A stretch of 64,000 nucleotides of DNA from assembly GCA_016521575.1 (NCBI GenBank), contig JAEKDP010000001.1, forward strand, positions 186,001 through 250,000, in the 5' to 3' direction. Below the pieces are notes generated by a model. That model searched no databases, was not told where the DNA came from, and saw only the letters and a program-made list of their open reading frames with translations. The stretch comes from Rhodobacteraceae bacterium F11138. GTDB lineage: Bacteria; Pseudomonadota; Alphaproteobacteria; Rhodobacterales; Rhodobacteraceae. Below are positions 1,235 through 62,162 of the stretch, piece after piece. Position 1 is the stretch's first letter. The number at the start of each line of letters is the position of its first letter. The position numbers and the translations under genes were made by a program.

Positions 1235-2107
1235 TCATGTGAATTTGCGAAAGAAACGGGTGCGGTCGAACATCTCTTCCAGTGCCTCCATGCGGTCGCG
1301 CGTCACATCCCACCTGCGTTCCTGGACTTCGGCGATCACGGTTTCCAGCAACAGCAACAAGGTGACCGAAGAATCCCAGGCCGACGGCACCGATATCCGA
1401 CCCGAAAACACGCATTCCGCCAGTTCATGCACAGGCGAGCGCCACTGATCGGTGAACAGCACGATCACCGCCCCCCGTTCGCGCGCCATCTCGGCCAGTT
1501 TGAGGGTCGAGTTTTCGTAGCGGCGCACGTCAAAGATCACCACAACGTCGCCCGCCTTGACGTCCAACAGATAATGCGGCCATGCGTTCGAAATCGACTG
1601 GATGTGGGTCACATCCGCGCGCAGAACCTGCATGTGCAGGAAAAAATGCTCTGCCAGCGAACGGGTGATGCGCCCGCCGACCGCATAGACCCGGCGTTCG
1701 GGGTCCGCCAGCAGGGCGCAGCAGGTTTCGAACATCGCCAGGTCGATCTGGGTCAAGGTCTGGCGGATATTGCCGATCACCGCTTCGGTGAACCGGTTCA
1801 GAATGTGTTCTTCCGGCGCTTTCTGCGCCCAGGTGTTCCGCTTGCTGATCGGATCCGAGATCTTTTCCTCCAGCTCGTCGCGCAATGCGGCCTGAAAGGC
1901 GGGGAACCCGGAAAAGCCCAGTTTCTGCACCATGCGCACCACGGTCGGGGTCGAGACCTGGGCATTCTGCGCCACCCGGGTAATCGAAGTCAGCCCGGAC
2001 ACCGGATAGTTCTGCAACAGGGAATCCGCCAGCTGGCGCTCGGCCCGGGTCAGCGAATCAAAAGACACCTGCAATCGTTCGGCAATGGTTTCTGATGTGT
2101 CCGACAC
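1235..2107 (-). CDS. RpiR/MurR-family transcriptional regulator (HTH + SIS)
   Basis: This 290-residue protein has the standard RpiR layout. An N-terminal helix-turn-helix (about residues 1-77) carries a LTRAERQLADSLLQNYP opening and the STPTVVRMVQKLGF recognition helix. A sugar-isomerase (SIS) ligand domain follows at about 125-260, with VYAVGGRITRSLAEHF. RpiR proteins usually sense a phosphosugar or, in Rhodobacterales, often a catabolic intermediate, and control neighbouring genes. Translation probably starts at a GTG (2107) preceded by a GGGGGAA ribosome site. It is divergent from the amidohydrolase-TRAP operon and precedes the polyamine-binding protein on the same strand, so it may regulate either or both. 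The ligand is unknown. Confidence 0.88.
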   Translation of the reverse strand: MSDTSETIAERLQVSFDSLTRAERQLADSLLQNYPVSGLTSITRVAQNAQVSTPTVVRMVQKLGFSGFPAFQAALRDELEEKISDPISKRNTWAQKAPEEHILNRFTEAVIGNIRQTLTQIDLAMFETCCALLADPERRVYAVGGRITRSLAEHFFLHMQVLRADVTHIQSISNAWPHYLLDVKAGDVVVIFDVRRYENSTLKLAEMARERGAVIVLFTDQWRSPVHELAECVFSGRISVPSAWDSSVTLLLLLETVIAEVQERRWDVTRDRMEALEEMFDRTRFFRKFT

Positions 2108-2238: not shown

Positions 2239-3018
2239 ATGACGGAAACGCACGCCAATTCAGACCGGGCGGTCAAGACCCACAATCGCGACGGGCGCGG
2301 CGGTGCGCTGATCGTGTGTGAACATGCCAGCCGCGACATCCCGGAACCATACGGCACATTGGGGCTGACGCCCGAATTGTTGCGCAGCCATATTGCCTGG
2401 GACCCCGGCGCATTGGCCGTGGCCCGGCGTCTGAGTACCGCCTTCGATGCCCCGCTGGTGGCGGGGGGCGTGTCGCGTCTGCTGTTTGACTGCAACCGCC
2501 CGCCACATGCCCCCGATGCGATCCCGGAACGCAGCGAAGATCACGCGGTTCCCGGCAATCAAAACCTGACCGACGCGGACCGCGCCAAACGGGTGCGCGA
2601 CATTCACGACGTTTTTCGCGACGGCATGGTCTCGGCGTTGGCCGGTTTCGCCGCCCCGCCGATCCTGATCACCGTACACAGTTTCACCCCGGTCTATCTG
2701 AACCGCGCGCGCAGGGTTCAGATTGGTCTGTTGCATGATACGGATGACCGGCTGGCACGCGCCATGCTGGCCTGCGCCCCGGCACATACCGGTCTGAGCG
2801 TTGCGCTGAACGATCCATATGGGCCGGAACATGGCGTCACCCACACGCTACGCCAATACGCGCTGCCGGCAGGATCGCTGAACGTGATGCTGGAAATACG
2901 AAACGACCTGATTGCCGACGCCACATCGCAGGCCCGGATGGCCGACATGCTGATTGACTGGATCGCGCAATCCACGGCAAGCCTGAACGCCCCGCTGACC
3001 GTCAGGGCCGGCACATGA
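2239..3018 (+). CDS. N-formylglutamate amidohydrolase-family enzyme
   Basis: The 259-residue protein belongs to the FGase family (PF05013), metal-dependent hydrolases that classically release glutamate from N-formylglutamate in histidine breakdown. Family landmarks are VCEHAS (Cys27-Glu28-His29), HIAWDPGA (Asp55), LLFDCNRP (Asp84, Asn86, Arg87) and TVHSFTP (His147). No hut gene is nearby. Instead its stop overlaps the dctQ start by ATGA, so it is translationally coupled to a TRAP transporter and heads an operon containing a gamma-glutamyl ligase. The context suggests hydrolysis of a glutamyl conjugate rather than of formylglutamate; that is inference. The start has only a weak purine-rich stretch before it. 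Confidence 0.82.
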   Translation: MTETHANSDRAVKTHNRDGRGGALIVCEHASRDIPEPYGTLGLTPELLRSHIAWDPGALAVARRLSTAFDAPLVAGGVSRLLFDCNRPPHAPDAIPERSEDHAVPGNQNLTDADRAKRVRDIHDVFRDGMVSALAGFAAPPILITVHSFTPVYLNRARRVQIGLLHDTDDRLARAMLACAPAHTGLSVALNDPYGPEHGVTHTLRQYALPAGSLNVMLEIRNDLIADATSQARMADMLIDWIAQSTASLNAPLTVRAGT

Positions 3019-3524
3019 TCGGCACGCTGAAAACCTATGTGAACGCCGTGGACGCCATCAACTACCGGCTGGGCCGGATCGTGATGTACGGCATTTTCGT
3101 GATGATGGGCATCCTGATGTGGTCATCGGTGTCCAAGACGTTTTTCGTCCCCTCGCTCTGGACGCTGGAGATGGCTCAGTTCGCGATGGTCGCCTATTAT
3201 GTTCTGGGCGGCCCCTATTCGATCCAGCTGGGCGCGAATGTCCGCATGGATCTGCTGTATGGAGACTGGACCCCTCGGCGCAAGGCATGGACCGATGCGT
3301 TTACCGTGCTGTTCCTGATCTTCTATCTGGTGGTCTTGCTGTGGGGTGGCATAGACAGCACGATCTATTCCTTCAAATACGGTGGCGAACGCAGCCCGAC
3401 AGCCTGGCGGCCCTATCTGTGGCCGATCAAGGTCATCATGTGCATCGGCATCTTTCTGATGCTGCTGCAATCCGTGTCCGAACTGTTCAAGGACATTCTG
3501 CGCCTCAAAGGTGAAGACATCTGA
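3015..3524 (+). CDS. TRAP transporter small permease (DctQ type)
   Basis: This 169-residue integral membrane protein has four predicted transmembrane segments, roughly at residues 20-40, 52-72, 95-117 and 138-160. The conserved small-subunit pattern around QLGANVRMD (segment 2 to the following loop) is present. DctQ partners DctM in the inner membrane of tripartite, sodium-gradient-driven uptake systems. It overlaps the amidohydrolase gene upstream by four bases (ATGA) and the dctM start downstream by one base, so the three proteins should be made in linked amounts. Confidence 0.88.
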   Translation: MIGTLKTYVNAVDAINYRLGRIVMYGIFVMMGILMWSSVSKTFFVPSLWTLEMAQFAMVAYYVLGGPYSIQLGANVRMDLLYGDWTPRRKAWTDAFTVLFLIFYLVVLLWGGIDSTIYSFKYGGERSPTAWRPYLWPIKVIMCIGIFLMLLQSVSELFKDILRLKGEDI

Positions 3525-4849
3525 TGCCCTATGAACTGATCGCCATCCTGATGTTTTCCACCATGATGCTGATGTTGCTGACCGGTCAGCGCGTTTTCGG
3601 TGCCATCGGCTTTGTCGCGGTGGTTTCCGCCCTTCTGCTCTGGGGCGACCGGGGCGGGTACGATCTGGGCTTTGCGGCGGCGATGAAGCTGATGAAATGG
3701 TATCCGCTGCTGACGCTGCCGATGTTCATCTTCATGGGCTATGTGCTGAGCGAATCCAAGATCGCCGACGATCTGTACAAGATGTTCCACGTCTGGATGG
3801 GCGGGCTGAATGGCGGGTTGGCCATCGGAACCATCGGGCTGATGGTGCTGATTTCGGCCATGAACGGGCTGTCGGTCGCAGGCATGGCCATCGGCGCGAC
3901 GATTGCGTTGCCCGAGTTGCTAAAACGCGGCTATGACAAGCGCATGGTGACCGGCGTGGTGCAGGCCGGTTCCAGCCTGGGTATTCTGGTGCCGCCGTCG
4001 GTGGTTCTGGTGCTGTATGCGATGATCGCGCGGCAACCGGTCGGACGACTGTGGCTGGCCGGAGTGGTGCCGGGGCTGATGATGGCGGGCATGTTCATCA
4101 TCTATATCGTGATCCGCTGCAAACTGAACCCGTCCCTGGGACCGGCCCTGAACGCCGCCGAGCGCAACGTGCCGATGCGCGAGAAACTGGCGCTGCTGCG
4201 TGCCGGGCTGCTGCCGCTGGGCATTTTTGCCGCGATGATGGTGCCCTTTGTCAACGGCTGGACCTCGCTGGTGGAAAGTTCCGCCATTGGTGCGATGACG
4301 GCCTTTGCCGCCGCCGTTCTCAAGGGACGGATGACGCGGAAGGTGTTCGAGGACTCGGTGCGCAACACGCTGGGGATTTCCTGCATGTTCATGTGGATCA
4401 TCCTGGCCGCGCTGGCCTTTGGCGCGGTGTTTGACGGGCTGGGCGCGGTCAAGGCCATCGAGGACCTGTTTACCGAGCGCATGGGCCTGTCGCCCTGGGT
4501 GATCCTGATCCTGATGCAGCTCAGCTTTCTGTTGATGGGTACGTTTCTGGACGATACCGCGATGCTGGTGATCGTGGCACCGCTGTACGTGCCGCTGGTG
4601 GGCGCGTTGGGGTTTGATCTGGTGTGGTATGGCATTCTGTATACAATCACCTGCCAGATCGCCTATATGACACCGCCGTTTGGCTACAACCTGTTCCTGA
4701 TGCGCGCCATGGCCCCGCCGGAAATCACCATTCAGGACATCTACAGATCCATCGGCCCCTTTGTCATTGTCATGGCCCTGGCGCTTGCGACGGTGATGAT
4801 CTTCCCGCAGATCGCGCTGTGGCTGCCGGATCTGATATATGGAAAATAA
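3524..4849 (+). CDS. TRAP transporter large permease (DctM type)
   Basis: The protein has 441 residues and about 12 hydrophobic segments, the normal length for DctM, the ion-coupled transport subunit of a TRAP uptake system. Family features include LTGQRVFGAIGF near the start, LLTLPMFIFMGY, and the proline-rich loops QAGSSLGILVPPSV and ITCQIAYMTPPFGYN, which contribute to the substrate and ion pathway. The start codon overlaps the dctQ stop. The binding-protein gene follows after 57 bases. Substrate specificity cannot be read from this subunit. Confidence 0.92.
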   Translation: MPYELIAILMFSTMMLMLLTGQRVFGAIGFVAVVSALLLWGDRGGYDLGFAAAMKLMKWYPLLTLPMFIFMGYVLSESKIADDLYKMFHVWMGGLNGGLAIGTIGLMVLISAMNGLSVAGMAIGATIALPELLKRGYDKRMVTGVVQAGSSLGILVPPSVVLVLYAMIARQPVGRLWLAGVVPGLMMAGMFIIYIVIRCKLNPSLGPALNAAERNVPMREKLALLRAGLLPLGIFAAMMVPFVNGWTSLVESSAIGAMTAFAAAVLKGRMTRKVFEDSVRNTLGISCMFMWIILAALAFGAVFDGLGAVKAIEDLFTERMGLSPWVILILMQLSFLLMGTFLDDTAMLVIVAPLYVPLVGALGFDLVWYGILYTITCQIAYMTPPFGYNLFLMRAMAPPEITIQDIYRSIGPFVIVMALALATVMIFPQIALWLPDLIYGK

Positions 4850-4906
4850 ACCCCGAGAACTCCGCGAACGGAGCACAGCAACAAGACTCAACAGAAGGAG
4901 ACGTTC

Positions 4907-5944
4907 ATGACTTCGAGACGCAGATTTTTGAGCACCGCCGGGCTGGCGGGCGCGGCGACGCTTGCGACGCCCGCCATCGTCAAGGCCCAGGCGCCGATCA
5001 AGTGGCGGTTCCAGACCTATGCCGGCGCGGCCCTTGGCGAACAAGTGACCAAACCGGCGATCGACTATATCAACAACGCCGCGAACGGCGAAATGGAAGT
5101 CGAACTGTTCTATGCTGATCAGATCGTGCCCACCGGCGAGCTGTTTCAGGCGCTTCAGCGGGGCACCATCGACGGCGTGCATTCGGACGACGATTCGATG
5201 GCTTCGCCCACGCCGCTGCGCCAGTTCGGCGGGTATTTCCCCTTTGCGACCAAACATATCCTGGATGTGCCGGTGCTGTTCAACCAGTACGGGCTGGCCG
5301 ATATCTGGCGGTCGGAATACGAAAAGGTCGGCGTGTCGTGGATCTCGGCCGCGGGTCAGGATCCTTGCAACTTCAACACCAAGAAGGAAATCAAATCCGT
5401 CGCCGACCTGGACGGATTGCGGTTGTACACCTTCCCCACCGCCGGGCGGTTCCTGTCGAAATTCGGCGTCGTCCCGGTGTCGATCCCCTATGAAGACGCC
5501 GAAGTCGCGGTACAAACCGGCGAGCTGGACGGCATGTCCTGGTCCGGCATCACCGAAGACTATACCGTTGGCTGGGCCGGGGTGACGGATTACTTCCTGA
5601 CCAACAACATATCCGGCGCGTGGATCGGATCCTGGTTCGTCAACCAGCAGCAATGGGCCGATCTGCCGGATCATCTCAAGCAGTTGGTCATGGCCGCGAC
5701 CGAGGCCGGGCATACCTATCGCAACCAGTGGTACTGGGGCGGCGAGGCGCGTCTGCGGGCCACGGGCGATCAGCTTGAATTGCGCACCGTGCCTGCGGAC
5801 GAATGGGCGCAGGTCGAAGACGCGGCCAAGGAATTCTGGACCGAAGTCGCCGAAGAAGGTGAGATTCAGGAAAAGATCGTCAGCATCTTCCGCGAATACA
5901 ACGGCGTGATCAACCAGGCCGGACCACCCTATACCAACGGCTGA
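4907..5944 (+). CDS. TRAP transporter substrate-binding protein (DctP type), Tat-exported
   Basis: The 345-residue protein begins with a twin-arginine signal (SRRRFLS at residues 3-9), a hydrophobic stretch, and a likely cleavage site near VKAQA (25-29). The mature part is a DctP-family periplasmic binder. The stretch LDGLRLYTFPTAGRF carries the arginine that in known members clamps a substrate carboxylate, and YEDAEVAVQTGELDG follows. The ribosome site is AGAAGGAGA ahead of 4907. A carboxylate or zwitterionic ligand is typical for the family, though some DctP proteins bind amine-bearing compounds. It sits between the permease genes and the gamma-glutamyl ligase, so its ligand should be the operon substrate. 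Confidence 0.9.
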   Translation: MTSRRRFLSTAGLAGAATLATPAIVKAQAPIKWRFQTYAGAALGEQVTKPAIDYINNAANGEMEVELFYADQIVPTGELFQALQRGTIDGVHSDDDSMASPTPLRQFGGYFPFATKHILDVPVLFNQYGLADIWRSEYEKVGVSWISAAGQDPCNFNTKKEIKSVADLDGLRLYTFPTAGRFLSKFGVVPVSIPYEDAEVAVQTGELDGMSWSGITEDYTVGWAGVTDYFLTNNISGAWIGSWFVNQQQWADLPDHLKQLVMAATEAGHTYRNQWYWGGEARLRATGDQLELRTVPADEWAQVEDAAKEFWTEVAEEGEIQEKIVSIFREYNGVINQAGPPYTNG

Positions 5945-6026
5945 TCCAGCACCGTGACAACACCTCGCTGTCCCGAACCGGTGTCGGGGCAGCGACACAA
6001 CCTTCATACGCCAGCAAGGACAGAAC

Positions 6027-7391
6027 ATGCCCGGATTGATGACATTTGAGACGCTCAAGGCGGCCGTGGCCGACGGATCGGTGGATACTGTTCTGGCCTG
6101 CCTCGTGGACATGCAGGGCCGTCTGATGGGCAAACGGTTCCTGGCCCAACATTTTGTCGACAGCGCCTGGGAAGAAACCCATTGCTGCAACTATCTGTTG
6201 GCCACCGACCTGGGGATGGCCACGCCCGATGGCTATGCCAGCACCAGCTGGCAAACGGGCTATGGCGACTATGTCATGAAACCCGATCTGTCCACGATCC
6301 GCCCGACGCCTTGGCTGGAGGGCACCGTGATGGTGCTGTGCGACGTGCTGGATCACCACACCCATGCCGAGGTCGCCCATTCTCCGCGCGCCGTGCTGAA
6401 ACGTCAGATCGCCCGATGCGAAGCCCTGGGATTGACGCCGATCATGGCGACGGAGCTGGAATTCTTCCTGTTCGAAAAGTCCTTTGCCGAAATTGCCAAG
6501 GGCGGGTACCGCGACCTGACTCCGATCAGCGGCTACAACGAAGACTACAACATCCTGCAAACCAGCCGCGAAGAGCATGTGATGCGCCCCCTGCGCAATC
6601 ACCTGTATGCGGCCGGAATCCCGGTCGAGAACACCAAGGGCGAGGCCGAAGCCGGCCAGGAAGAGCTGAACATCAAATATGCGGCGGCGCTGGACACGGC
6701 GGATCACCACACGATCGCCAAGCACGCCACCAAGGAAATCGCCGACCAGCATGGCCATGCCGCCAGCTTCCTGCCCAAATGGCATGCGGATAGGGTCGGA
6801 AGTTCGTCCCATGTGCATCAATCCATGTGGAAAGACGGCGAAAACGCATTTTTCGATCCCGATGGGGACCACGGCATGTCCGATCTGATGCGGCACTACA
6901 TGGCCGGGATGATCCGCTATGCGCCCGACATGACGGTTTTCATGGCCCCTTATATCAACAGCTACAAACGGTTTTCCAAGGCGACCTTTGCACCGACCAA
7001 GACAGTCTGGTCGGTCGACAACCGCACGGCCGGGTTCCGCCTGTGTGGCGAAGGATCAAAGGCGGTGCGCGTGGAATGCCGGATACCGGGATCGGACATG
7101 AATCCCTATCTGGCGATGGCCGCGCAGCTGGCCGCCGGGCTGGCGGGGATCGAGGAAAAGCTGGACCTGCAGGCCCCGACGTCGGGCGATGTCTATGATG
7201 CCGCAGAAGCAGGTGAAATCCCCCGCACCCTGCGCGACGCGCTTGGCACGCTGCGCGCATCGACCATGTTGCGCGCGGCGATGGGGGATGATGTGATCGA
7301 CCACTACTGCCGCGCCGCCGAATGGGAAATCGAAGAGTTCGACAAGGTGGTTACCGACTATGAAATCGCGCGCGGCTTCGAGCAGGCGTAA
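6027..7391 (+). CDS. Glutamine-synthetase-like gamma-glutamyl ligase (PuuA/GlnA-like)
   Basis: This 454-residue protein has the glutamine synthetase fold: beta-grasp at about 15-110 and a catalytic domain at 115-450. Metal and glutamate-site motifs are visible: ELEFFLF (143-149), GEAEAGQEELN (205-215), GSSSHVHQS (258-266) and the ATP-site stretch NRTAGFR. It matches the branch that joins glutamate to amines, such as gamma-glutamylputrescine synthetase PuuA, rather than the main ammonium-assimilating enzyme. The expected reaction is ATP + glutamate + amine to gamma-glutamyl amide. It is followed by aldehyde and alcohol dehydrogenase genes on the same strand. The PuuB-type amine oxidase of the classical Puu pathway is absent, pointing to a different amine. 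The start follows an AAGGA site. Confidence 0.85.
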   Translation: MPGLMTFETLKAAVADGSVDTVLACLVDMQGRLMGKRFLAQHFVDSAWEETHCCNYLLATDLGMATPDGYASTSWQTGYGDYVMKPDLSTIRPTPWLEGTVMVLCDVLDHHTHAEVAHSPRAVLKRQIARCEALGLTPIMATELEFFLFEKSFAEIAKGGYRDLTPISGYNEDYNILQTSREEHVMRPLRNHLYAAGIPVENTKGEAEAGQEELNIKYAAALDTADHHTIAKHATKEIADQHGHAASFLPKWHADRVGSSSHVHQSMWKDGENAFFDPDGDHGMSDLMRHYMAGMIRYAPDMTVFMAPYINSYKRFSKATFAPTKTVWSVDNRTAGFRLCGEGSKAVRVECRIPGSDMNPYLAMAAQLAAGLAGIEEKLDLQAPTSGDVYDAAEAGEIPRTLRDALGTLRASTMLRAAMGDDVIDHYCRAAEWEIEEFDKVVTDYEIARGFEQA

Positions 7392-7472
7392 CCGGAGGGC
7401 GCGGGGCCACCCCCTGCCCCCGGGGCATTGTGAGCAAAATGGGCCCATGGCCCCGAGGTTTGGAGGTTTGGC

Positions 7473-8855
7473 ATGGGTCAGACGATAAAATGCATCTCAC
7501 CGATCGACGGTTCGGTCTATGTGGAACGCGCGGCGCTGGAGTACGAGGCTGCGGAACAGACCGTTGCCACGGCGCGCAGCGCGCAAAAAGCCTGGGCCGC
7601 GCGCCCGTTGGCGGAACGGATCGAACTGGTGATGAAAGGCGTCGCCATTATCGGCGCCATGAATGACGAAATCGTGCCCGAACTGGCGCATCAGATGGGC
7701 CGCCCGGTGCGCTATGGCGGCGAATTTGGCGGATTCAACGAACGCGCCAGCCACATGGCACAGATCGCGCAAACCGCATTGGCCGATATCGTGATCGAGG
7801 ACAGCGACGCCTTCAAACGTCATATCGTGCGCGAAGCACATGGTGTGGTGTTGGTGATAGCGCCGTGGAACTATCCCTACATGACCGCGATCAACACGGT
7901 TGCTCCGGCGCTGATTGCCGGCAATACCGTGCTGCTGAAACACGCCAGCCAGACATTGCTGGTCGGCGAACGCATGGCAGACGCGTTTCACCAGGCGGGC
8001 ATCCCCGCCGAGGTGTTCCAGAACGTGATTCTGGATCATGACACCACATCGGCGCTGATCGGCGCGCGGGCCTTTGATTTTGTCAATTTCACCGGCTCGG
8101 TCGGTGGCGGCAAGGCGATCGAAGCCGCCGCGGCGGGTACCTTCACCGGACTGGGGCTGGAACTGGGCGGCAAGGATCCCGGCTATGTCTGTGAAGACGC
8201 CGATCTGGACGCCGCGGTGGACACCCTGATCGACGGCGCGATGTTCAACTCGGGGCAATGCTGCTGCGGGATCGAACGGATCTATGTGCATGAAAGCCTG
8301 TTCGACGCCTTCGTGGAAAAAGCCGTCGCCATCGTCAGCGCCTACAAGCTGGGCAATCCGCTGGACCCTGAAACGACGCTGGGTCCGATGGCGCAGGCCC
8401 GGTTCGCCGACCTGGTGCGCGCCCAGACCGCCGAGGCCGTCGCCGCGGGCGCGACGGCGTTGATCGACCCGGCGCTGTTTCCACAGGATGGCGGCGCCTA
8501 TCTCATGCCGCAAATCCTGACCAATGTGGACCACTCCATGCGGGTGATGCGCGAAGAGAGTTTCGGTCCGGTGGTCGGCATCATGCCGGTGACGGACGAC
8601 GCCCAGGCCATTTCGCTGATGAACGACAGCGATTTCGGCCTGACCGCCAGCGTCTGGACCAAAGACACCGCCCGCGCCGAAACCATTGGCGCGCAGATCG
8701 AAACCGGCACCGTGTTCATGAACCGCGCCGACTATCTGGACCCTGCCCTGTGCTGGACCGGATGCAAGGACACCGGACGCGGGGGCGGATTGTCTGTCAT
8801 CGGGTATCACAACCTGACCCGTCCCAAATCCTATCACCTGAGGAAACTGCCATGA
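7473..8855 (+). CDS. NAD(P)-dependent aldehyde dehydrogenase
   Basis: This 460-residue protein is a member of the aldehyde dehydrogenase superfamily, which oxidises aldehydes to carboxylates. PWNYP (131-135) and Lys156 belong to the cofactor site, NFTGSVGGG (205-213) is the Rossmann loop, and ELGGKDP carries the general-base Glu230. The nucleophile is probably Cys264 in the unusual triple cysteine NSGQCCCG (259-266). A GGAGG site lies ten bases upstream of the start. The stop codon overlaps the next start (ATGA at 8852-8855), coupling it to the alcohol dehydrogenase, so the two probably oxidise an alcohol to an acid in sequence. The aldehyde may be a gamma-glutamyl amino aldehyde; that is inferred from the ligase gene just before. 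Confidence 0.9.
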   Translation: MGQTIKCISPIDGSVYVERAALEYEAAEQTVATARSAQKAWAARPLAERIELVMKGVAIIGAMNDEIVPELAHQMGRPVRYGGEFGGFNERASHMAQIAQTALADIVIEDSDAFKRHIVREAHGVVLVIAPWNYPYMTAINTVAPALIAGNTVLLKHASQTLLVGERMADAFHQAGIPAEVFQNVILDHDTTSALIGARAFDFVNFTGSVGGGKAIEAAAAGTFTGLGLELGGKDPGYVCEDADLDAAVDTLIDGAMFNSGQCCCGIERIYVHESLFDAFVEKAVAIVSAYKLGNPLDPETTLGPMAQARFADLVRAQTAEAVAAGATALIDPALFPQDGGAYLMPQILTNVDHSMRVMREESFGPVVGIMPVTDDAQAISLMNDSDFGLTASVWTKDTARAETIGAQIETGTVFMNRADYLDPALCWTGCKDTGRGGGLSVIGYHNLTRPKSYHLRKLP

Positions 8856-9997
8856 CTCTCACCGCAAACTGGTCTTATCCCACCGCAATCCGGTTTGGTG
8901 CGGGCCGTATTTCCGAACTGGCCGAGGCCTGCACGGCGGCGCATATCACCCGCCCGTTGCTGGTCACCGACAAGGGGCTGGCAAATCTGCCGATCACCCG
9001 GACTGCGCTGGATATTCTGGATTCAGCCGGGCTGGGCCGGGCGATGTTCTTTGAAGTCGACCCGAACCCGACCGAACTGAACCTGGCCGCCGGGGTCGAG
9101 ATGTTTCGCAATGGCGGCCATGACGGGGTGATCGCATTCGGCGGCGGCTCGGGGCTGGATCTGGGCAAGATGGTCGCCTTCATGGCCGGGCAGGACCGGC
9201 CGGTCTGGGATTTCGAGGATGTCGGCGATTGGTGGAAACGCGCCGATGCCGACGCCATCGCGCCGATCATCGCCGTTCCCACCACGGCGGGCACAGGGTC
9301 CGAAGTCGGACGGGCTTCGGTTTTGACCAACTCGGTCACGCATGAAAAGAAGATCATCTTTCACCCGAAGGTGCTGCCCGAAATCGTCATCGCCGACCCG
9401 GAATTGACGGTGGGCATGCCCCGCGCGATCACGGCAGGCACCGGCATGGACGCCTTTGCCCATTGTCTGGAAGCCTATTGTTCGCCGCATTATCACCCGA
9501 TGAGCCAGGGAATTGCGCTTGAGGGGCTGCGCCTGGTCAAGGATAACCTGCCCGCCGCCTATGCCGATGGCACGGACCTGACGGCACGGGCCGAAATGAT
9601 GAGCGCGGCAATGATGGGCGCGACCGCGTTCCAGAAAGGGCTGGGCGCAATCCACGCATTGTCGCACCCGATCGGGGCGGTCTACAACACCCACCACGGC
9701 ACGACGAACGCGGTCGTGATGCAGCCCGTATTGCGGTTCAATCGTCCGCAGATCGAGGACCGGCTGGACAAGGCGGCCGCGTATCTGGGCATCAAGGGCG
9801 GGTTTGACGGGTTCTATGCCTATGTCGGTCAATTGACCGAACGGCTGGGCATTCCCGCCACGCTGACCGAACTGGGCGTGACCGATCCGGATATCGACGC
9901 CTTGGTCGCCTCTGCCCTGTCCGACCCCAGTACCGGCGGCAATCCGGTGAAGATGACCACGGAAAACACCCGCGCATTGCTGGCCGATTGCTTCTAG
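8852..9997 (+). CDS. Iron-type (group III) alcohol dehydrogenase
   Basis: The 381-residue protein is a metal-dependent alcohol dehydrogenase of the FucO/AdhB family. The nucleotide-binding GGGS is at 97-100, and TTAGTGSEV is at 144-152. The metal ligands fall at the expected spacing: Asp200, His204, His268 and His282. It would interconvert an alcohol and aldehyde with NAD(H), upstream of the aldehyde dehydrogenase it overlaps. I chose the ATG at 8852 because it forms an ATGA overlap with the preceding gene and follows a GAGGAAA site; an in-frame ATG at 8750 lies inside the aldehyde dehydrogenase gene and is unlikely. It is the last gene of the operon. Confidence 0.88.
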   Translation: MTLTANWSYPTAIRFGAGRISELAEACTAAHITRPLLVTDKGLANLPITRTALDILDSAGLGRAMFFEVDPNPTELNLAAGVEMFRNGGHDGVIAFGGGSGLDLGKMVAFMAGQDRPVWDFEDVGDWWKRADADAIAPIIAVPTTAGTGSEVGRASVLTNSVTHEKKIIFHPKVLPEIVIADPELTVGMPRAITAGTGMDAFAHCLEAYCSPHYHPMSQGIALEGLRLVKDNLPAAYADGTDLTARAEMMSAAMMGATAFQKGLGAIHALSHPIGAVYNTHHGTTNAVVMQPVLRFNRPQIEDRLDKAAAYLGIKGGFDGFYAYVGQLTERLGIPATLTELGVTDPDIDALVASALSDPSTGGNPVKMTTENTRALLADCF

Positions 9998-10462: not shown

Positions 10463-10561
10463 GACACGGCCCCGGTTCCGGCACAAGATAGGCATGTACG
10501 ACTCTGACGGGGGTCTGCACCCGCAGTCATGCCCGGCACTCATTCCCGGAAAGGAGCTGTT

Positions 10562-11959
10562 ATGGACGGCACGTTCAACGAAAACGATATTTCCCGCGTG
10601 GTCGAGGCCGACAAGGCGCATATCTGGCACCATCTGATTCAGCACAAGCAGTTCGAAACCAACGATCCGCGCATCATCCTTGAAGGCAAGGGAATGCGGG
10701 TCTGGGACCAGAACGGCAAGGAATATCTGGATGCGGTTTCAGGCGGGGTCTGGACCGTCAACGTGGGCTATGGCCGCGAAAGCATCGCCAAGGCGGTGTA
10801 TGACCAGTTGATGAAACTATGCTATTTCGCCCAGAGCGCCGGTTCGATTCCGGGCTCGCTGTTTGCCGAGAAGCTGATTGAAAAGATGCCCGGCATGAGC
10901 CGCGTCTATTACACCAACTCGGGCTCGGAGGCGAACGAGAAGGCGTTCAAGATGGTCCGTCAGATCGCGCACAAGCGGTATGGCGGCAAGAAACACAAGA
11001 TCCTGTATCGCGACCGGGACTATCACGGCGGCACGCTTGCCACGATGTCGGCGGGCGGTCAGGACGAACGCGTGATGCAATACGGCCCCTTGGCGCCGGG
11101 TTTCGTGCGTGTGCCGCATTGCATGCAGTACCGCGCCCATGAACAGGGGCTTGAGCATCTGAGCAGCGAGGAATACGGCGTCGCTTCGGCAAACCTGATC
11201 GAAGAGGTGATCCTGCGCGAAGGGGCCGATACCGTTGGTGCGCTGTGTCTTGAACCGGTGACGGCGGGCGGCGGCGTCATCACCCCCCCGCCCGGATACT
11301 GGGACCGCGTGCAGGAGATCTGCAAAAAATACGACATCCTGCTGCATATCGACGAAGTGGTTTGCGGCATCGGACGCACGGGCACCTGGTTTGGATACCA
11401 GCAATATGGCGTGAAACCCGATATGGTGACCATGGCCAAGGGGGTCGCCTCGGGCTATGCGGCCATCGCCTGTTGCGTGACCACCGAAGAGGTGTTCGAG
11501 CTTTTCAAGGACGACGCAGCGGATCCGCTGAACTATTTCCGCGATATCTCGACCTTTGGCGGCTGCACCGCCGGCCCTGCGGCCGCACTGGAAAACATGC
11601 GGATCATCGAAGACGAAAACCTGCTGGATAACTGCACCGATATGGGCGAACGGATGCTGGGCAACCTGCGTGGCCTGATGGACAAGCACAAGGTCGTCGG
11701 CGATGCACGCGGCAAGGGTCTGTTTCTGGGGGCCGAACTGGTCACCGACCGCACCAGCAAAGAGCCGGTCAGCGAAAAGCAAATGGCCCAGGTCGCGGCC
11801 GAATGCGGCGCACAGGGCGTCATCATCGGCACATCCAACCGCTCGGTCCCGGGCAAGAACAACGTGCTGTGTTTCTCGCCCGCATTGATCGCCACCAGCG
11901 ATGACATCGACCGGATCACGGATGTGGTCGACAGCGCATTGGGCAAGGTGTTCGGGTAA
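10562..11959 (+). CDS. tpa: Taurine--pyruvate aminotransferase
   Basis: This 465-residue class III aminotransferase has its PLP lysine at about residue 293 in TMAKGVASGY and the Asp-containing LHIDEVVCGIGRTG just before. The N-terminal sequence IWHHLIQHKQF and the stretch GGVWTVNVGYGRES match Tpa, which moves the amino group of taurine to pyruvate, giving sulfoacetaldehyde and alanine in the cytoplasm. The start at 10562 follows an AAAGGAG site; an upstream in-frame ATG at 10529 precedes that site and is unlikely. The assignment is strengthened by paired TauR-type boxes in its promoter and by tauR and soeABC nearby. The next pathway gene, xsc (sulfoacetaldehyde acetyltransferase), is not in the window. 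Beta-alanine or another omega-amino acid remains possible as substrate. Confidence 0.78.
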   Translation: MDGTFNENDISRVVEADKAHIWHHLIQHKQFETNDPRIILEGKGMRVWDQNGKEYLDAVSGGVWTVNVGYGRESIAKAVYDQLMKLCYFAQSAGSIPGSLFAEKLIEKMPGMSRVYYTNSGSEANEKAFKMVRQIAHKRYGGKKHKILYRDRDYHGGTLATMSAGGQDERVMQYGPLAPGFVRVPHCMQYRAHEQGLEHLSSEEYGVASANLIEEVILREGADTVGALCLEPVTAGGGVITPPPGYWDRVQEICKKYDILLHIDEVVCGIGRTGTWFGYQQYGVKPDMVTMAKGVASGYAAIACCVTTEEVFELFKDDAADPLNYFRDISTFGGCTAGPAAALENMRIIEDENLLDNCTDMGERMLGNLRGLMDKHKVVGDARGKGLFLGAELVTDRTSKEPVSEKQMAQVAAECGAQGVIIGTSNRSVPGKNNVLCFSPALIATSDDIDRITDVVDSALGKVFG

Positions 11960-12069: not shown

Positions 12070-13104
12070 TCAGATCGACTGATAAACGATCCCGGACAGG
12101 ATAGCCCCGGTCAGACCCAGCCCAAGATACATTGCAAAGACCCGCGGTTTGACCAGCGACCAGACTGCCGCCATGGCCGGGATCGAACTGACCGACCCAG
12201 CGATCATAAAGGCCATCGCTGCACCCACGCTCATACCCTGATCGATCAGCCCCGCCAGCAGCGGAGGCGCGACATAGCCGTTCAGATAGGCGGGCATCCC
12301 GACCACCGCAGCGGTCGCGATCGGCACGATGCCTTCGCCACCGACGACACCGGCGATCAGATCGGCGGGAACGTAGTGCACCAGCAGCGCCTCAAGCGTA
12401 TAGGCCAGGGCCAGCCATTTGAACAGAAACAGCGCGTTGTGGCCGAACTCCTCGCGGAAGCGCGCACGACGCGGTGCTTCGGTCCAGAACCGCCACTGCG
12501 GCTTGCCATCCAGAGCGGGACCACCGCCGCCGCAACATCCGCTGCGCTGATAGACCCGCAGCGGGCTGCCGAATGCCCCCTGTGCCATCAGAAACCTGAC
12601 GACGAAGCCGCCAAACAGCCCCAGCGCCACGGCCGCGACAGCCTTGGCGATGGCAAAGGGCCAGCCCAAGGCCCCGGCGGTGATCAGCAGGGTCGGCGGG
12701 TCGATCAGGGGCGAGGACAGCCAAAACGCCATCACGGCGGAAAGCGGCGCCCCCAGGGCCAGCAGCCCGGCAATGAAGGGGATCACTTCACAAGAACAGA
12801 AGGGTGCCAGACCACCAAACAGGGCGGCCAGGAAAATCATTCGCGTTTCCCGTCCCTGAAAGGCCTGCGCAACTATGGTCTCGGCCCCGGTCGCCTTGAG
12901 ATAGGACAACAGCAGAACGGCAAACAGGATATATGGCGCGGTATGTGCCAGCGCCCGCGCGGCAAATTCAACTGTCGCCAACAGGTTGCCCGGGTCCAGC
13001 ACCGCCACCAGGCCAAAGACGGCGGCGATCACGAACCAGGGCGTTTTCAGGTATTTCAGGCGACGCGACAGCGGGCCAATCGGATGTTGCGACAGCTCAG
13101 CCAT
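12070..13104 (-). CDS. ArsP/YraQ-type permease (PF03773), putative metal or metalloid exporter
   Basis: This roughly 344-residue polytopic membrane protein belongs to the permease family that includes ArsP and the SO_0444 Cu/Zn efflux protein. The hallmark LAPFCSCEVIPFIAG lies in an early hydrophobic segment, followed by LSSPLIDPPTLLIT. A duplicated second half contains VVGMPAYLNGYVAPPLLAGLID. A loop carries the cysteine-rich motif SGCCGGGG. The cysteines suggest thiol-binding ions such as trivalent arsenicals, Cu or Zn. The ATG at 13104 overlaps the end of the arsR gene by eight bases, indicating coupled translation; an ATG at 13143 lies deeper inside arsR. The actual cargo is not determinable. 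Confidence 0.82.
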   Translation of the reverse strand: MAELSQHPIGPLSRRLKYLKTPWFVIAAVFGLVAVLDPGNLLATVEFAARALAHTAPYILFAVLLLSYLKATGAETIVAQAFQGRETRMIFLAALFGGLAPFCSCEVIPFIAGLLALGAPLSAVMAFWLSSPLIDPPTLLITAGALGWPFAIAKAVAAVALGLFGGFVVRFLMAQGAFGSPLRVYQRSGCCGGGGPALDGKPQWRFWTEAPRRARFREEFGHNALFLFKWLALAYTLEALLVHYVPADLIAGVVGGEGIVPIATAAVVGMPAYLNGYVAPPLLAGLIDQGMSVGAAMAFMIAGSVSSIPAMAAVWSLVKPRVFAMYLGLGLTGAILSGIVYQSI

Positions 13105-13414
13105 TGCTGACCGCCTGTTGCGGTGCATCCGCACAGCATTCATCCAAAATGAAATCCGCCAGAATTCGCAATTGGCCGTAATCGGCGCGGTTGATCACGC
13201 TGCGGCCGGTTTTTTGCTGCACGATCACGCCTCCGGCGGACAGGTATTTCAGGTGATGCGCCAAGGTCGAAGGTGCGATACCGGTGCGTTCCTGTATCTC
13301 GCCGACGGTCAGACCGGTCTCGCCGGCGCGCACCAGTGCTTTCAGCACCCGCAACCGGGCTTCGGATCCCATGGCTGCAAATGCCTTTGCAGTTGTGTCC
13401 CACATTCGCTTCAT
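13097..13414 (-). CDS. ArsR-family metal-responsive repressor
   Basis: This 105-residue winged-helix protein has the ArsR core: MGSEARLRVLKALVRAG, then TVGEIQERTGIAPSTLAHHLKYL as the recognition helix and the wing VIVQQKTGRSV. Near the C-terminus a Cys pair (DECCADA, about residues 91-97) could be the inducer-binding thiols, as seen at varied positions in ArsR/SmtB proteins. It is the first gene of a two-gene operon with the permease, with an AAGGA ribosome site and a dyad-rich promoter directly upstream. It most likely represses its own operon until the toxic ion binds. Confidence 0.88.
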   Translation of the reverse strand: MKRMWDTTAKAFAAMGSEARLRVLKALVRAGETGLTVGEIQERTGIAPSTLAHHLKYLSAGGVIVQQKTGRSVINRADYGQLRILADFILDECCADAPQQAVSNG

Positions 13415-13564: not shown

Positions 13565-15022
13565 ATGGCCATCTCCGTCGACACCTTCTTTCTGAACCCC
13601 GGCGGGCAGGGCACACTTCAGTCGCAAATTCAGCAGATGATCGCCGAAGGCATTCTTTCAGGCCGGTTTCATCGTGGCGAAAAACTGCCCTCGTCGCGCA
13701 AGCTGGCGCAACATCTGGGCGTCAGCCGGATCACCGTGACGCTGGCCTATACGGAATTGCTGTCCAACGATTATCTGACATCACGCGGGCGGTCCGGGTA
13801 TTTCGTGTCCGACAACGCCCCGGTTCCGCCCGTATATGCGCCGTTGCCGCGATCACGCGACCGGGTCAACTGGATGCGCGTCATCCGCCACACGCATACC
13901 GGTGGCGACACGCCGCGAAGGCCGCTGGACTGGCAGAAATACCGCTACACGTTCAACTATGGCCAGACCGACCCGACCCTGTTTGATCATGCCAACTGGC
14001 GTCTCTGCGCCCTGCGCGCTCTGGGGCAAAAGGACATCTCGTCGCTGACGGCGGACTATTATGATCAGGACGACCCGTTGCTGGTCGAATTCATCGCACG
14101 GCACACGCTTCCCCGTCGCGGCATTTCGGCCCGGCCCGAGGAAATCCTGATCACGATGGGGGCGCAGAACGCTCTTTGGCTGACCGCCCAGATCCTGCTG
14201 GACACCGACCGGACGGCGGTGATCGAAGACCCCTGCTATTATGCCCTGCGCGATCTGCTTGGGCCGACCGGATGCCGGCTGGCACCGCTGCGCGTGGATG
14301 CAGACGGTCTTCCGCCCGATGCGTTGCCGTCGGACACCAACGTGATCTTCACCACCCCCAGCCACCAGTCTCCGACCACCGCGACCATGCCGCTGACCCG
14401 CCGTCACGCCCTGCTGGAACAGGCCCGCTGGCTGGACGCGCTGATCGTTGAAGATGACTATGAGTTCGAACTGGCATTCATGGCGGCACCATCACCCGCG
14501 CTCAAGTCGCTGGATCAGGACGGCCGGGTGATCTATGTCGGCAGTTTCTCGAAATCGCTGTTTCCGGGATTGCGGTTGGGCTATCTGGTCGGGTCGGAAC
14601 CGTTTATCCGCCAGGCCCGCGCCCTGCGCGCCAGCGTGCTGCGCCATCCGCCCGGGCACCTGCAACGCACCACGGCCTATTTCATGAGCCTTGGGCATTA
14701 TGACGCCCAGATCCGCCGTATGTCCGGTATTTTGCACGCCCGGCGCGAGGCTCTGGAAACCGCCATTGCCGACGCCGGTCTGACAATCGCCGGACGCGGT
14801 GTTTATGGCGGATCATCGCTGTGGATGCGGGCGCCGGACGGGGTGAATACGGCCGAGCTGGCGGCGGATCTGCGCAACGACGGGGTGCTGATCGAGCCGG
14901 GCGCGCCGTTTTTCGCCGGACCTGACCGCCCCTCGGAATTCTATCGGCTGGGATATTCCTCGATCCCCGAGACCCGGATCCCCTCGGGCATACAGCGCAT
15001 CGCGCGCCGGCTGAACGCATGA
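13565..15022 (+). CDS. tauR: MocR-family regulator, probably TauR
   Basis: This 485-residue protein fuses a GntR winged helix (about 15-80, with KLPSSRKLAQHLGVSRITVT) to an aminotransferase fold (about 110-480). The PLP lysine is at about 330 in YVGSFSKSLFPGLRLGY. This is the MocR/GabR architecture, in which an amino-group ligand reacts with PLP to switch DNA binding. The N-terminal sequence and the nearby tpa point to TauR, the activator of taurine degradation in Rhodobacter and relatives. Both its own promoter and that of tpa carry paired boxes matching the recalled TauR site. No conventional ribosome site is obvious, because a box occupies that stretch. GabR- or EnuR-like regulators are alternatives. 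Confidence 0.75.
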   Translation: MAISVDTFFLNPGGQGTLQSQIQQMIAEGILSGRFHRGEKLPSSRKLAQHLGVSRITVTLAYTELLSNDYLTSRGRSGYFVSDNAPVPPVYAPLPRSRDRVNWMRVIRHTHTGGDTPRRPLDWQKYRYTFNYGQTDPTLFDHANWRLCALRALGQKDISSLTADYYDQDDPLLVEFIARHTLPRRGISARPEEILITMGAQNALWLTAQILLDTDRTAVIEDPCYYALRDLLGPTGCRLAPLRVDADGLPPDALPSDTNVIFTTPSHQSPTTATMPLTRRHALLEQARWLDALIVEDDYEFELAFMAAPSPALKSLDQDGRVIYVGSFSKSLFPGLRLGYLVGSEPFIRQARALRASVLRHPPGHLQRTTAYFMSLGHYDAQIRRMSGILHARREALETAIADAGLTIAGRGVYGGSSLWMRAPDGVNTAELAADLRNDGVLIEPGAPFFAGPDRPSEFYRLGYSSIPETRIPSGIQRIARRLNA

Positions 15023-59623: not shown

Positions 59624-60442
59624 TCAATCACCCAGTTTGGCGTGAACCTCGGCCAGATCAATCTGGCCGATCGGCAGCTTGTTGGCGGGGTTCTCAAAAT
59701 CGTATTTGAACAGTTCGAAATCACGTTTGTAGATTTCATACACAAGATGCATCGACAGATCGTCAAAGAAATCTTCGACCGGATGCGCCCGTTCGGGGCC
59801 GTGGGCCTGACTTTCGTTGAAGCGCGGTATTGACTTCAAGTCGACCGGATGCGGCGTTTCCACCGCGTTCAGGACCTGCTCCATGCCTTCGTCGAACGTC
59901 TCTGTCCAGAAGATGTTGTCGTAGGCCCCACCGTTCACAATGAAGGTCGACACATGGCCGGACACAGCGGACCAGTGGATGTCCGGATCCATCGGTTTTC
60001 GCCATTTGATCGTGTCGCGCGCGAACAGCAAGAACCGCCGAAACGACCGGATCTGGTCGAATTCTTCCTTGCCGTCCTCTCCGCCCACCTCGATGCCGTA
60101 ATTGGCCATCAACATCGGCACCAGATTGCCCCGGTATCTTTTTCCGTTGCGCTGGATGCCGCAGATCTTGTCGAAAAACGAACTCAGGATGCGGCTATAG
60201 GGATTGCGCACACAGGTGAACGCATAGGACCGGCGTTCGCGCACATTGCGCACGATCGGTTCATGGCTGGTCTCGATCGCCCATTTGTGCATCCCGCTTT
60301 CGGCATCATGGATATCACCGTCATAGAACTGCCCATGGTCGGAATAATACATGATCTGCCCGATGGTCGAACAGGCGCATTTGGGCACCACCCGGTATAC
60401 CATGCTTTCGGACGTGGTCATCCAGATCCCGGGAAACCCCAT
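59624..60442 (-). CDS. Sulfotransferase family 2 protein
   Basis: The 272-residue protein has both PAPS contacts of carbohydrate-type sulfotransferases. The 5'-phosphosulfate loop is VVPKCACSTI (18-27), and the 3'-phosphate motif is TCVRNPYSRILSS (76-88). This matches Sulfotransfer_2, the family of HNK-1, chondroitin and heparan sulfotransferases. It would move sulfate from PAPS onto a sugar, probably in the cytoplasm since no signal peptide or transmembrane segment is seen. The ATG at 60442 has AAGGAGG upstream. It is divergent from a GT14 glycosyltransferase 142 bases away, suggesting a shared glycan. Confidence 0.87.
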   Translation of the reverse strand: MGFPGIWMTTSESMVYRVVPKCACSTIGQIMYYSDHGQFYDGDIHDAESGMHKWAIETSHEPIVRNVRERRSYAFTCVRNPYSRILSSFFDKICGIQRNGKRYRGNLVPMLMANYGIEVGGEDGKEEFDQIRSFRRFLLFARDTIKWRKPMDPDIHWSAVSGHVSTFIVNGGAYDNIFWTETFDEGMEQVLNAVETPHPVDLKSIPRFNESQAHGPERAHPVEDFFDDLSMHLVYEIYKRDFELFKYDFENPANKLPIGQIDLAEVHAKLGD

Positions 60443-60584
60443 ATTTCTGCCTCCTTGGCCTGATCGATCCGTATCGGTTACAGGCATCATCCAAGCAAAA
60501 AAGCAAAACGTGCCGGTTTATTCAATCGTTCTTCACCGCTATCAAGATATTCTATCTGCAAATAAAAGGTGTATCGCTCTGAAG

Positions 60585-62162
60585 ATGGCAAAAATCGCGT
60601 ACATCTTGCTGTGTCACAAAGACCCTAGGGCGATCATCCAGCAGGCGCAAATGGTCACGGCTGCCGGCGACTATATGGCAATCCATTTCGACCGCCGTTC
60701 TGATGCCGACGCTTTCAACCGGATCCGTTCGGCCCTGGCGGACAATCCCAATGTCGTTTTTGCGCAGAAACGGGTGAAATGCGGCTGGGGGGAATGGTCG
60801 TTGGTCCAGGCCACCCTGAACGCGGTTCGCGCCGCGGTGGACGCCTTTCCCGACGCAACGCATTTCTACATGCTGTCGGGCGACTGCATGGCGATCAAGA
60901 CCGCCGAATTTGCTCATCGCTTTCTGGACCAGAACGACGCAGATTTCATCGAGAGCTTTGATTTCTTCAACAGCGGCTGGATCAAGACCGGCATCCGGGA
61001 AGAACGGTTGATCTATCGTCATCTGTTCAACGAACGAAAGCACAAGCGCTTGTTCTATGCCGCCCTGAACCTGCAACGCCGGTTGGGTCTGCGCCGCAAA
61101 ATTCCCCAGGACATTCAGGTTCAGGTCGGCAGCCAATGGTGGTGCCTGCGCCGCCGGACCATCGAATGGATTCTGGATTTCATTCAGGCACGGCCCGATG
61201 TGGTGCGCTTTTTCCGATCTTCCTGGATCCCCGACGAAACCTTTTTCCAGACGCTGGTGCGCCACCTGGTGCCCGAAACCGCAATCCGCACCCGCACCCT
61301 GACCTTTCTGATGTTCACGGACTATGGGCTGCCGGTGACGTTCTATAACGACCACTATGATCTTCTGTTGGCACAAGATTTTCTGTTCGCGCGCAAAATC
61401 AGCCCCGAAGCCGATGAATTGAAAGCGCGGCTGGGCCAGCTTTACGCCGAACAAGGGGTCGCGTTCCAGATTTCAAACGAAGGCCAGAATCTGTATCGTT
61501 TTCTGTCCGGGCGCGGCCGTGTGGGGCGGCGTTTTGCCACCCGGTTCTGGGAAACCGAAAGCACCCTGGGCCGGGATCGTGAATTGTTGATCGTGGTGTG
61601 CAAGAAATGGCATGTGGCCAAACGCCTGCGGGAACAGGTCGCGCCGCTGATCGATTTTCCCGTCCTCGGGTATGTATTCGACGAAGAGGACACCGATCTG
61701 CCCGACCTGGGCGGCATTCAGAGCAGCCTGGCAAAACGCACACGGCACCGCCGCGCATTGATGCGTATGCTCTATGAATTCTATGACACCAACCGTCTGA
61801 TGGTCTGCATCGACCCGGGCAATCTGGACCTGCTCCGCGACTTCTTTTCGGATCGGTCGACAACCCGCATGCTTGAAATCGAATGCAGCTATACCGACGA
61901 CGATCTGATCGGACACGCCCGTCGGATTGGTCTGACCGGCACGCACAGCAGCCCCGAAACCCTGCAACACCTGCTGCCATCCTTGCGCAACGATATCGCC
62001 CACGAAAGTGAACGGATCAACGATGCCGGGCTCAACGATCACCAAAGGCTGTCGGACCGCGATCCCCCGGAACGGATTGCCGAAAAACTGGCCAGGTTCA
62101 TGGGAATTCCGCACAATGAAGCGTTGGACATTGCGGCCACGCAACAGCTGCTGGCAGATTAA
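60585..62162 (+). CDS. GT14-type (core-2/I-branching-like) glycosyltransferase with DUF5928-like C-terminus
   Basis: This roughly 525-residue protein has an N-terminal domain (about 1-260) matching the Branch family (PF02485): AYILLCHKDP, FDRRSDADAF, FYMLSGDCMAIK and the QWWCLRRRTIEWILDF-SSWIPDETFFQTL pattern. Eukaryotic members are beta-1,6-N-acetylglucosaminyltransferases and protein O-xylosyltransferases. The C-terminal 260 residues, with FYNDHYDLLLAQDFLFARKIS and LLIVVCKKWHVAKRLREQVA, resemble the DUF5928 extension in Rhodobacterales. No transmembrane helix or signal is visible, so it probably acts in the cytoplasm. The ATG at 60585 is chosen because the family starts here; the frame is open to 60351. 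The sugar and acceptor are unknown. Confidence 0.83.
   Translation: MAKIAYILLCHKDPRAIIQQAQMVTAAGDYMAIHFDRRSDADAFNRIRSALADNPNVVFAQKRVKCGWGEWSLVQATLNAVRAAVDAFPDATHFYMLSGDCMAIKTAEFAHRFLDQNDADFIESFDFFNSGWIKTGIREERLIYRHLFNERKHKRLFYAALNLQRRLGLRRKIPQDIQVQVGSQWWCLRRRTIEWILDFIQARPDVVRFFRSSWIPDETFFQTLVRHLVPETAIRTRTLTFLMFTDYGLPVTFYNDHYDLLLAQDFLFARKISPEADELKARLGQLYAEQGVAFQISNEGQNLYRFLSGRGRVGRRFATRFWETESTLGRDRELLIVVCKKWHVAKRLREQVAPLIDFPVLGYVFDEEDTDLPDLGGIQSSLAKRTRHRRALMRMLYEFYDTNRLMVCIDPGNLDLLRDFFSDRSTTRMLEIECSYTDDDLIGHARRIGLTGTHSSPETLQHLLPSLRNDIAHESERINDAGLNDHQRLSDRDPPERIAEKLARFMGIPHNEALDIAATQQLLAD

Follow-up and report, generated by a model that had tools for sequence, protein, structure and literature searches.

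The closest described counterpart of the locus treated here is the ethanolamine operon of Phaeobacter sp. MED193 (MED193_10021-10056), whose genes encode RpiR, GGAH, EtoV, EtoW, EtoX, ETAGA, GAADDH and GETADH (PMC10132767; the papers given by PMC number are cited throughout from passages). ETAGA is an ethanolamine gamma-glutamylase, GAADDH a gamma-glutamyl aldehyde dehydrogenase and GETADH a gamma-glutamylethanolamide dehydrogenase. The MED193 EtoX protein binds ethanolamine with a Kd of 7.9 uM, and phosphorylethanolamine raises the amounts of five proteins of the operon (PMC10132767). The corresponding genes of Rhodobacteraceae bacterium F11138 lie in a stretch of 64,000 nucleotides (contig JAEKDP010000001.1, positions 186,001 to 250,000), hereafter the window, which carries all eight of these gene types, arranged as the MED193 locus tags run (Fig. 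5 legend, PMC10132767). No difference between the two operons was seen in this comparison of gene types and gene order. The window genes almost certainly constitute a gamma-glutamyl-type ethanolamine operon, the functions of the window proteins being predicted from their relatives. The pathway is already known, and the window holds an ordinary copy of a gene set published from marine bacteria.

In the predicted route, a tripartite ATP-independent periplasmic (TRAP) transporter would import ethanolamine, and a GlnA-like ligase would join it to glutamate at the expense of ATP, giving gamma-glutamylethanolamide. An iron-type alcohol dehydrogenase and then an aldehyde dehydrogenase would oxidise the hydroxyl end to yield gamma-glutamylglycine, which an enzyme of the formylglutamate amidohydrolase (FGase) family would split into glutamate and glycine, and RpiR presumably controls the operon. 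The two oxidations, the final amide cleavage, the role of RpiR and the transfer of the whole scheme to the window are our inferences. A first-pass annotation, made from the letters of the window, had arrived at import by a TRAP system, attachment of glutamate to an amino alcohol with ethanolamine as first example, oxidation of alcohol to aldehyde to acid and release by the FGase-like enzyme, and this equals the published pathway step by step. Demonstrations in relatives comprise ethanolamine binding by the solute-binding protein, the rise of operon proteins on phosphorylethanolamine, and the ligase activity of Streptomyces coelicolor GlnA4 (PMC6529630). As to the pathway as a whole, a figure legend in PMC10132767 calls the pathways predicted, and the same paper describes the MED193 genes as closely related to those of an ethanolamine pathway "demonstrated to function" in Chromohalobacter salexigens and Agrobacterium tumefaciens C58; PMC12410723 links the reference cited for these words, Vetting et al. 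2015 (doi 10.1021/bi501388y), with Csal_0678. In PMC6529630 the C. salexigens pathway is instead termed an in silico prediction.

The substrate is indicated first by the binding protein. Among PDB sequences, the window DctP matches 4uab with an E-value of 8.3e-142, the next at 4.1e-20, and 200 of 316 aligned residues are identical to those of 4uab. This entry is Csal_0678 of C. salexigens with ethanolamine bound, and Glu220 has been named as the platform residue of its ethanolamine site (PMC12410723). Position 220 is a threonine both in the listed 4uab chain and in the window DctP, the numbering relative to Glu220 being uncertain, and an offset of 3 would fit. The nearest glutamate, at 217, whose equivalence to Glu220 is likewise uncertain, is conserved in all 108 rows of the alignment (the window, 4uab, 80 near loci and 26 far loci). 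The near loci are the best 80 of at least 588 stretches encoding a DctP relative, and the far loci derive from 398 genomes drawn evenly across the phylum, 27 of which, including the window's own, have a DctP match at 1e-60, leaving 26 other loci. Any primary amino alcohol suits the chemistry, and the operon could serve 3-aminopropanol, alaninol or serinol with ethanolamine as a mere side substrate; but DctP is by far nearest the ethanolamine-bound 4UAB among solved proteins, the operon equals that of MED193, whose binding protein binds ethanolamine, and the same TRAP type adjoins eutBC in one far locus, so that we consider another amino alcohol very improbable. The first-pass annotation had called the substrate unknown; the 4uab match, the ethanolamine in 4UAB and the binding by MED193 EtoX, that is, ethanolamine binding shown for the binding proteins of two relatives, lead us to reject a new or unknown substrate.

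The hosts of the near loci, judged from titles, are mostly Rhodobacteraceae, with some Rhizobiales and others. Gene calls in these loci were made by tblastn with identity thresholds set by the analyst. All eight genes are found in window order in 62 of the 80, and because the order is kept so widely the arrangement goes beyond chance; conservation of gene order had been proposed as a check in the first-pass annotation. The ligase gene is present in 77 of the near loci, the FGase gene in 72, and an RpiR gene lies divergently upstream in 70. Contig ends explain some of the gaps: L054 begins within dctM and L017 about 1.1 kb before dctQ, and the contigs of L011 and L027 stop within or just past the ligase gene. 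Where no ligase gene stands beside the TRAP genes (L017, L018 and L049), a ligase 67-74% identical is encoded elsewhere in the genome in all three cases.

The ligase matches TIGR00653 (E 1.3e-75, 254.9 bits) and TIGR03105 (E 2.6e-71, 240.4 bits), matches that would favour an ordinary glutamine synthetase; both scores, however, fall far under the NCBIfam cut-offs of 429.15 and 469.6, and the gene sits between those for the binding protein and the dehydrogenases. We therefore reject an ordinary glutamine synthetase on the scores, and give this reading practically no weight. Against the gamma-glutamylputrescine synthetase model the ligase scores 210.5, the cut-off being 650. Its nearest solved relative, PDB 5dm3, we take to be the product of the C. 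salexigens gene that adjoins Csal_0678.

The family name of the amidohydrolase, PF05013, would suit an enzyme acting on N-formylglutamate in histidine breakdown that is merely parked in the operon. Of the five PF05013 copies in the genome, however, the one in the operon matches the model most weakly; some 150 bases separate a different copy (contig C23, 300110-300760) from the single PF00221 (hutH-type) gene of the genome (C23, 300910-302292), and because of this adjacency histidine breakdown probably relies on an enzyme of its own. The operon copy is on another contig, C1, and holds its place in 72 of the 80 near loci. A HutG role for the operon enzyme is rejected, since the hutH-type gene on C23 adjoins another copy, and we regard the N-formylglutamate reading as highly unlikely. 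At an E-value of 0.01, the only PDB relative of the operon enzyme is 2odf (hypothetical protein Atu2144), with an E-value of 8.3e-74. An alignment of 88 operon FGases, namely that of the window and those of the 87 loci, out of 106, where the hit exceeds 38% identity and 200 aa, shows H29, H51, D55, R80, D84, R87, E100, H147 and E219, among others, to be invariant in 88 of 88. When the operon enzyme was compared with four FGase paralogues by tblastn at 1e-8, only L084 matched (34%) and L081-L083 gave none. Because L084 keeps the invariant residues save E100, which is replaced by D, these residues mark the family and not the substrate. The deglutamylating role had been thought new in the first-pass annotation, but as a proposal it was in print in 2019, when SCO1615, of the formylglutamate amidohydrolase family, was proposed to split gamma-glutamylglycine (PMC6529630), and again in 2022 (PMC9397018); in 2023 a gamma-glutamylglycine amidohydrolase was named in the corresponding position of the MED193 operon, the FGase family being unnamed in the passages concerned (PMC10132767). 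A direct assay of gamma-glutamylglycine cleavage by a member of the family was not found in the passages covered; judged by titles and abstract openings, everything else listed in literature searches for it was a review or dealt with another subject.

Across the far set, the FGase, TRAP, ligase and both dehydrogenase genes stand together in 16 of the 26 loci, and an RpiR gene is divergent upstream in 16. TRAP genes occur with no neighbouring ligase gene in 7 of the 26, among them L132, which has an alcohol dehydrogenase gene nearby (54% identity). Three of these seven genomes encode a ligase relative elsewhere at 1e-120 (G317, 65%; G026, 54%; G325, 50% identity), and in three others (G042, G101 and G395) EutB is found above the cut-off. 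In locus L139 of G395 the ethanolamine ammonia-lyase genes eutB and eutC (6641-8910, minus strand) adjoin dctQMP of the same TRAP type, and represent a different route served by the same transporter. EutB was found neither in three comparison genomes with the ligase operon (G080, G093 and G335) nor in the window's own genome, where the search for this ammonia-lyase route gave 0 matches. One imported compound, ethanolamine, feeding two alternative routes would explain the pattern of ligase and EutB.

Several observations weigh against the ethanolamine scheme as drawn. MED193 EtoX also rises under phosphorus starvation alone (PMC10132767). No ligase relative at 1e-120 was found in the TRAP-only genome G396, where EutB likewise stays under the cut-off, with two 28-residue pieces, one of them at a contig end. 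The FGase gene is absent from 8 of the 80 near loci, including the contig-end cases L054 and L017, and in the other six (L041, L045, L049, L053, L077 and L080) none was seen although the contig extends some 2.8 to 8 kb beyond dctQ on the upstream side. A genome-wide search covering seven of these eight loci (all except L054) gave zero matches in the genomes of L045 and L053 and, in those of L017, L041, L049, L077 and L080, only matches 31-37% identical. In the far set, 3 of 19 loci with ligase and dehydrogenase genes (L144, L146 and L149) have no FGase gene. Two of these, L144 in G367 (7378-8742) and L149 in G393 (6285-7796), are variant loci with a ligase 32% identical to that of the window and both dehydrogenases 54-58% identical, and their genomes hold PF05013 copies away from the loci. 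In the third, L146 in G382, the ligase and both dehydrogenase genes are divergent from the TRAP genes, and PF05013 has no match anywhere in the genome; either a different amidase must do this work in G382, or the scheme must be incomplete. We put at about even the chance that the FGase-family enzyme truly hydrolyses gamma-glutamyl peptides, as predicted, and that an unrelated enzyme took over the step in relatives such as G382. The predicted cleavage of gamma-glutamylglycine by this family, and its replacement in relatives with no FGase, are the points of remaining interest.

The genes of the unit are compiled in Table 1. The first-pass annotation had listed the FGase-family, dctQMP, GlnA-like ligase, aldehyde dehydrogenase and iron-type alcohol dehydrogenase genes at 2239-9997, and open reading frames and Pfam matches agree with it. 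These seven plus-strand genes were correctly delimited, but the divergent RpiR gene, which belongs to the unit, had been omitted. Overlapping junctions, also noted earlier, were found at 3 of the 6 plus-strand junctions, which from FGase through alcohol dehydrogenase measure -4, -1, +57, +82, +81 and -4 bases. For the alcohol dehydrogenase, the mechanical open reading frame starts at 8750 (GTG), and the ATG at 8852 is the likelier start, giving 381 aa and the 4-base overlap with the aldehyde dehydrogenase gene.

Table 1. Genes of the predicted ethanolamine operon in the window.
Gene product	Position	Strand	Evidence
RpiR-family transcriptional regulator (HTH_6 + SIS), divergent	1235-2107	-	Pfam; counterpart of MED193_10021
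FGase-family amidohydrolase, predicted gamma-glutamylglycine amidohydrolase (GGAH)	2239-3018	+	PF05013, E 5.8e-34
TRAP small permease DctQ (EtoV)	3015-3524	+	PF04290
TRAP large permease DctM (EtoW)	3524-4849	+	PF06808
TRAP ethanolamine-binding protein DctP (EtoX), assigned by sequence	4907-5944	+	PF03480; match to PDB 4uab
Glutamine-synthetase-like ligase, predicted ethanolamine gamma-glutamyl ligase	6027-7391	+	Gln-synt_C PF00120, E 2.2e-101; PDB 5dm3, E 8.5e-225
Aldehyde dehydrogenase, predicted for gamma-glutamyl aldehyde	7473-8855	+	Aldedh PF00171, E 3.7e-117; position as in PMC10132767
Iron-type alcohol dehydrogenase, predicted for gamma-glutamylethanolamide	8852-9997	+	Fe-ADH PF00465, E 5e-46; position as in PMC10132767

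A class III aminotransferase gene (10529-11959, plus strand) begins 531 bases downstream of the last operon gene and is not a member of the unit, no qualifying match having been found in the 80 near loci (E 1e-8 and identity of at least 54%) or the 26 far loci (E 1e-5). Beyond it lies a gene for a MocR/PdxR-type regulator (13565-15022, plus strand). On the minus strand, an ArsP_1-type permease gene (12070-13143) overlaps a small HTH_20 helix-turn-helix gene (13097-13414). Elsewhere in the window, at 60351-62162 on the plus strand, a single protein combines a Core-2/I-branching-type domain with DUF5928.

The Puu putrescine pathway and the isopropylamine/alaninol pathway likewise attach glutamate, oxidise the side chain and free the glutamate again, as in the scheme proposed for the window, but they differ in having other substrates and a PuuD-like amidase and, in the case of Puu, an amine oxidase. 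The Csal_0678 TRAP system of C. salexigens combines an ethanolamine-binding protein, to which the window DctP shows the identity given above, with the same four enzyme families as the window: the C. salexigens enzymes are tabulated as PF00120, PF00465, PF00171 and PF05013 (PMC9397018), and genes of all four families are present in the window operon. In the GlnA4 pathway of S. coelicolor (SCO1611, 1612, 1613 and 1615), a ligase, two dehydrogenases and a member of the formylglutamate amidohydrolase family are proposed for the same four steps (PMC6529630, PMC9397018); this system differs in being actinobacterial, and TRAP genes are unnamed in the passages of those two papers that describe it. Set beside these systems and the MED193 operon, the window operon adds one more instance of a known marine-bacterial route by which nitrogen and carbon would be gained from ethanolamine, a phospholipid head group.

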